This document shows, one piece after another, positions 40,201 through 40,730 of a DNA stretch of 64,000 bases. Each line of letters begins with the position of its first letter. The stretch's first letter is position 1. The notes under the pieces were generated by a model. The model had not been told where the DNA came from. It saw only the letters and a program-made list of their open reading frames with translations, and did no database searches. The translations under genes were made by a program, and so were the position numbers. This DNA comes from Maridesulfovibrio salexigens DSM 2638 (GTDB lineage: Bacteria; Desulfobacterota; Desulfovibrionia; Desulfovibrionales; Desulfovibrionaceae): assembly GCF_000023445.1 (NCBI RefSeq), contig NC_012881.1, positions 2,782,501-2,846,500 on the forward strand. The letters are read 5' to 3'.

Positions 40201-40341
40201 AGAAGTACGGAAGCCGTCGAACATGTGCAGGAAAGGCACGCTGGATTCGATGGATGCGAGATGGGAAATAAGGGCGATGTCCATACATTCCTGTACGGAG
40301 CTGGATGCCAGCATCGCGAAACCGGTCTGGCGGCAAGCCAT
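37207..40341 (-). CDS. por: Pyruvate:ferredoxin oxidoreductase, main part downstream of a frameshift
   Basis: This 1044-residue frame is the body of a PFOR, which converts pyruvate and CoA to acetyl-CoA, CO2 and reduced ferredoxin. It begins [18 protein letters not shown], an internal PFOR motif, so it lacks the first ~130 residues, which lie in another frame at 40341-40730. The ferredoxin domain has [12 protein letters not shown] and [12 protein letters not shown]. The C-terminal TPP domain has [11 protein letters not shown] (proximal cluster cysteines) and [13 protein letters not shown]. With one base restored at 40347 the two frames give about 1174 residues, close to the single-chain PFOR of D. 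africanus. An authentic broken gene is unlikely, given its central place in lactate catabolism. Confidence 0.9.
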
Positions 40342-40730
40342 TACGTCTGATGATCACCGAAGATGGAAAGAGCCTGTGCTGCGATGGCACGGGCGGAAAC
40401 ATGAAAAACACCGGGAAGAAGTTCACCGGAGATTTTGTACATGTTGGGGATCATAAGCAGGAGACCCTGCGATGCAGTATAAGTAGAAGTAAGCGCGCCA
40501 GCTGCGAGAGCGCCGTGAACGGCACCGGCGGCACCAGCTTCAGACTGAAGCTGTTTTACGTTGAGAACCTGACCGAAGATGTTCTTGCGGCCCTGTGCTG
40601 CCCACTCTTCTGCGACTTCACCCATGGTGGATGAAGGAGTGATGGGATAGATGGCAGCAGTATCGCTCATCGCATAAGATACGTGAGCAGTAGCTGTGTT
40701 ACCATCCATAGTTTTCATGTTCTTAGCCAT
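40341..40730 (-). CDS. por: Pyruvate:ferredoxin oxidoreductase, N-terminal part upstream of a frameshift
   Basis: This frame carries the true start of por: [23 protein letters not shown], then the pyruvate-binding [21 protein letters not shown] and the GGHFSR-like region [16 protein letters not shown]. It breaks off after the CAG codon with T-stop. PFORs continue here with DVMACRQTG, and exactly those residues follow in the -1 frame (GAC GTA ATG, 40347-40339). So one G is missing from what should read CAGGAC. AAGGAGCTTACTTA precedes the ATG. This is the first gene after the sigma-54 promoter. Confidence 0.9.

Follow-up and report, generated by a model that had tools for sequence, protein, structure and literature searches.

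The window analysed here is a stretch of 64,000 nucleotides (G000:C1:2782501-2846500) from the single-contig genome of Maridesulfovibrio salexigens DSM 2638 (4,289,847 bases). Its minus strand carries por, a pyruvate:ferredoxin oxidoreductase (PFOR) gene, within a set of lactate-oxidation genes, and the genes for a response regulator and a histidine kinase lie upstream (Table 1). The regulator pair is followed by por, lactate permease, dld-IIA/B, pta, ack and the LUD-domain genes. Gene types and their order agree with those of the luo/lactate-oxidation operon DVU3025-3033 with LurSR of D. vulgaris (PMC4481167, PMC6456213), and the placement of the regulator pair relative to por also corresponds to that described for LurSR (PMC6456213). 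In two respects the locus differs from the D. vulgaris operon: por is interrupted, and the gap between ack and the LUD-domain genes is only 299 bp, thus there is no pta-N gene at this place. According to PMC4481167, pta-N is usually absent.

Table 1. Features of the por locus, with positions in the window
Feature	Position	Strand	Remarks
LUD-domain genes (two; L-lactate dehydrogenase lldG/lldH-like)	25877..28662	-	open frames 28039-28662 and 25877-28036; PF02589, PF02754, PF13183
acetate kinase	28962..30152	-	open frame; PF00871
phosphate acetyltransferase	30152..32269	-	open frame; PF01515, PF13500, PF07085
Fe-S/CCG subunit (dld-IIB-like)	32477..33772	-	open frame; PF02754, PF13183
FAD-linked dehydrogenase subunit (D-lactate dehydrogenase dld-IIA-like)	33774..35189	-	open frame; PF02913, PF01565
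lactate permease	35268..36980	-	next gene downstream of por; open frame; PF02652
por, 3' piece	37207..40341	-	1044-aa frame, PFOR residues 131-1174, open to natural stop
por junction	40339..40352	-	one base short compared with 16/16 other genus species searched; TAATG stop/start overlap
por, 5' piece	40341..40730	-	129-aa frame: PFOR residues 1-128 and one further residue out of frame
Shine-Dalgarno-like site	40738..40744	-	AAGGAGC before por start; 10/10 aligned species
sigma-54-type promoter-like site	40845..40859	-	TTGGCAC-N5-TTG, upstream of por
sigma-54 response regulator	41165-42655	-	upstream of por; LurR-like by position and domains
histidine kinase	42648-45308	-	upstream of por; LurS-like by position and domains

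In the genome record, por is split by one base. The minus strand at 40358-40332 reads GGTGATCATCAGACGTAATGGCTTGCC; the upstream frame stops with TAA at 40343-40341, and the downstream frame begins MACRQTG with an ATG shared with that stop. This stop/start overlap, created by the break, had escaped an earlier sequence-only reading of the locus, which had rightly named the gene as PFOR. The model TIGR02176 (pyruvate:ferredoxin (flavodoxin) oxidoreductase, 1167 positions) is matched by the small piece at positions 1-124 (240.4 bits) and by the large piece at positions 127-1167 (1699.9 bits, exceeding the curated cut-off of 911.35 bits). Combined, the pieces span the model; as recorded, por lies in two frames and is not the one uninterrupted chain of this family. 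The break falls in the middle of the Pfam domain POR_N, the small piece matching its profile at positions 2-110 and the large piece at 113-230. Among the single-chain PFORs (structures 1b0p/1kek and others, 7plm), the solved chain 1b0p_A aligns to the two pieces with its residues 2-127 and 131-1168; the frame here differs from the single-chain enzyme by a one-base interruption inside the first domain. 1b0p/1kek is the Desulfovibrio africanus enzyme, whose catalytic residues Thr31, Glu64 and Arg114 would fall on the small piece. Multi-subunit PFORs such as 9bt4 likewise form the enzyme from more than one chain, but both pieces find their counterpart in the 9bt4 alpha subunit (403 aa), at residues 11-130 and 134-382, thus the break is located inside an alpha-type chain and not between subunits.

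Orthologues were searched in 58 genomes including the own one, with one genome per species and 16 other species of the genus. All 16 possess a por orthologue of 80-96 % identity without stops, the closest being 96 % identical to the 1044-aa piece, and all carry one extra base at the junction, relative to the window, and read through it without interruption. The proposed one-base nature of the break was thereby borne out, and a two-frame match by chance alignment can be dismissed, since an unbroken orthologue with the extra base is present in every one of these species. Counted from the MAK start, the orthologues comprise 1174 residues in 15 species and 1175 in one, as anticipated with a predicted length of about 1174. 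Judged from these alignments, no other searched genome shares the break, and this speaks against a programmed frameshift that is conserved. Beyond the genus, the matches listed in a scan of contigs included at least 80 PFOR loci at 58-70 % identity, none of them genus-level by identity; a megablast against plasmids yielded no match. In two of the relatives, a PFOR match was listed with one internal stop (G002:C36:139069-142197 and G017:C15:6803-9931; TAG, TAA).

A split por might still be functional, with -1 recoding or a stop and restart at TAATG yielding either a single PFOR chain or two pieces that complement each other. Both pieces are conserved and in place, and the overlap is of a kind that permits translational coupling. 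In dnaX, a programmed -1 frameshift gene, two overlapping frames stand in the same -1 relation. Unlike in dnaX-type genes, an in-frame slippery heptamer (X XXY YYZ) was not found across the 129-codon frame, in agreement with the sequence-only reading, and the overlapping frames occur in none of the 16 other species; programmed -1 ribosomal frameshifting was rejected on both grounds. The intact frame in all these species argues against recoding, which had been put forward as an alternative, and conserved recoding was likewise discarded. Transcriptional slippage was rejected as the site has no homopolymer, positions 40301-40400 being free of runs of four or more identical bases. Directly 5' of the second ATG no AGGAG-like site was read from the sequence. 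In 14 of the 16 intact relatives GTAATG already occurs in-frame, thus the TAATG overlap is incidental, a by-product of the coding sequence. A split enzyme would furthermore have its POR_N domain cut in half, and a stop with restart would lose two residues, one of them a conserved Asp. This Asp was present in 95 of 95 loci with the motif at its place, from 110 loci examined (14 lacked the motif, one matched elsewhere, and some were possibly the same contig from two collections). A functional split gene is therefore very improbable. The special case of a truly broken strain that makes PFOR as two polypeptides coupled by stop and restart at TAATG is more improbable still; if true, a single natural step would have turned a single-chain PFOR into a two-piece enzyme, with the cut inside the TPP-binding domain. 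No evidence pointing to a new decoding mechanism was found, and an isolated lesion in one record is nothing out of the ordinary.

An old, decaying pseudogene would be expected to show relaxed selection or further damage besides the disabling lesion. The one disabling lesion and the presence of a paralogue elsewhere fit this explanation, the remainder of the gene speaks against it. In a codon comparison with the junction masked and the two pieces kept apart, 1172 codons contained no further indel and both frames were open. Compared with six near relatives, 27 codon changes were private to this genome, 21 synonymous and 6 non-synonymous, at a neutral expectation of 72-78 % non-synonymous changes (binomial P between 2e-9 and 8e-8). 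Two of the six non-synonymous changes yield an amino acid that is also found in two of the six near relatives. The ratio of non-synonymous to synonymous private changes was 0.29 here and 0.07 to 0.46 in the six intact relatives; when the pool was widened to all 16 relatives, two private changes were left, one synonymous and one not, too few to judge. Pairwise dN/dS values with seven relatives amounted to 0-0.018 for the N-terminal part and 0.062-0.089 for the C-terminal part, inside the range for pairs of intact relatives (maxima 0.025 and 0.092, respectively). Neither relaxed selection nor additional disabling changes were thus observed. Decay over a long time was rejected on the missing second indel and the predominance of synonymous private changes, and we regard it as extremely unlikely. 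With no damage elsewhere in the gene and a majority of synonymous private changes, the lesion must be either artefactual or very recent: the substitution pattern indicates that por was under selection for function during most of its separate history.

If one base was truly lost from por in this strain very recently, the gene would be inactive, and the loss would have to be tolerated because pyruvate is cleaved by a second PFOR or by a different enzyme. The genome encodes a second PFOR at G000:C1:805806-809297, an uninterrupted frame of 1202 codons with 1919.5 bits to TIGR02176 and 72 % identity to the 1044-aa por piece. A second nearly full-length PFOR match also exists in 15 of the 16 congeneric species; in G002 this match is listed with one internal stop. 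It was therefore too strong to state that a real mutation would interrupt the conversion of lactate to acetyl-CoA. The genome also contains four matches to the glycyl-radical-enzyme family, one with an internal TGA, as candidates for a pyruvate formate-lyase. The genes downstream of por have open frames and no lesion was flagged in them; after a deletion, ribosomes may stay on the message owing to the TAATG overlap, and expression of the lactate genes further down would continue. Opposed to a tolerated loss is the strong purifying selection on por in the genus and on the own branch. In D. vulgaris, por was reported as probably essential despite other oxoacid oxidoreductases; a deletion was not achieved and transposon hits were absent (PMC4481167). 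These data would count against an easy replacement of por by the second PFOR. A recent deletion in this strain thus appears quite possible, while falling short of probable. If it were real, the strain would offer a natural test of the replacement of por, whose deletion failed in D. vulgaris (PMC4481167), by a second PFOR.

A one-base error in the assembled sequence would account for the interruption as well. The lactate-oxidation gene cluster of the organism would then be headed by a normal por of full length (about 1174 codons). The intact gene in each of the 16 congeneric species and the reported failure to delete por in D. vulgaris (PMC4481167) support an error, whereas the genome is a single contig, the site without homopolymer is no classic error site, and the intact paralogue could make a real loss of por tolerable. 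We infer, with somewhat more confidence than doubt, that the interruption is a one-base sequence error; this explanation ranks as most likely, followed by a recent mutation of the strain. It is favoured because por is important and shows no decay, and the number of lesions in the genome is not the reason. The earlier suggestion of a sequencing or assembly error as the simplest cause is upheld as a preference on these grounds, the error as such being a deduction. The consequence is above all one of annotation: metabolic models derived from this record would call the PFOR of the cluster broken, while the comparative evidence describes a gene that is intact, or was until very recently. No published mention of this frameshift was among the entries listed by the literature searches. 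The legend of Figure 9 in PMC4481167 lists D. salexigens DSM 2638, with the word frameshift absent from the text of that paper, and salexigens is absent from PMC6456213.

The frequency of isolated lesions was obtained from the window and from 420 kb beyond it at five places, together with the matching stretches of relatives (frames of at least 120 aa from ATG starts, with identities of at least 70 %). In each region, a genome was represented by whichever comparison covered most genes, giving 45+48+34+33+5+48 = 213 conserved genes for this genome and 518 for four relatives (G004 163, G001 139, G003 16 and G011 200, the latter possibly with some genes counted twice, as its stretches for regions C and D overlap). 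Four isolated lesions in 213 genes versus two in 518 are not a significant difference (Fisher p = 0.06), nor is it for frameshifts alone (p = 0.15); leaving out G003, 502 genes remained with p = 0.07 and 0.16. The count for this genome is biased upwards, the window having been sampled because of por and stretch E having been chosen around a known internal-TGA gene. Without these two genes, both known before sampling, the frequencies were 2 of 211 and 2 of 518 (p = 0.58), hence no excess. Both lesions in the relatives belong to G011, and isolated frameshifts in another species at a frequency of 2 in about 200 genes are in line with a genuine recent deletion in por. Both affect conserved genes: one lies near G011:C1:2277560 (region A), where the gene has about 830 aa and is uninterrupted in three others, the second in L183 (region D).

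The four lesions of this genome were por, symporter frameshifts at about 801,540 and 3,911,600 and a TGA at about 3,907,940 (all G000:C1). The first symporter frameshift (L132 about 14540) is a one-base shift affecting a gene of the sodium:sulfate symporter type (PF00939); this gene is intact in three relatives and has the second PFOR gene at a distance of about 4 kb. Within G000:C1:3906917-3912057, a glycyl-radical-enzyme gene has the in-frame TGA, and a sodium:dicarboxylate symporter gene (PF00375) is frameshifted some 4 kb further on; both genes are intact in G011. Two lesions at this distance could reflect true local decay. Antisense-frame rows were dropped from the counts (A/G001 STOP, B/G000 two STOP, W/G004 STOP, E/G011 STOP and FS), the other strand having the better-conserved frame in these cases. 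A STOP in A/G011 was dropped as an upstream extension, an uninterrupted frame of 825 residues being present there. Apart from the dropped antisense row in G004, por alone was flagged in the window stretch against three relatives. An earlier version of the scan gave additional splits, many at over-extended starts, and its counts were not used. Two apparent splits in the window were rejected: one near 3470, on reading, proved to be an upstream extension before the start codon, the other at 13786-13863 is a tRNA-Met gene crossed by over-extended frames of the relatives. This tRNA-Met gene (CAT, 13783-13859, minus strand) closely precedes an open frame at 13950, and the over-extended frames crossing it mimic a frameshift.

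The region upstream of por was aligned for nine of the 16 same-genus species and the window, ten rows in total. The sigma-54-type promoter-like site was kept in eight of the nine relatives, the ninth (G001) differing at one base; a related sigma-54 pattern with one mismatch allowed occurred three times in the window at 2.65 expected, which is chance level. The por leader (40740-40845, minus strand, GTTCAACCTTGCG...GCAAGGTTTTT) is strongly conserved in eight of the nine aligned relatives, G002 being the exception. It has the potential to fold into an 8-bp hairpin with Ts behind it and might be attenuator-like. Its folding energy was not better than that of shuffled sequences (z -0.18), and Rfam at gathering thresholds assigned no family to the leader, tRNA being its only match in the whole window. 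Further upstream, a GTC-N10-GAC dyad (40943-40958, minus strand) is kept in all ten aligned species while its surroundings vary; this dyad is a candidate regulator site, LurR-like by position.
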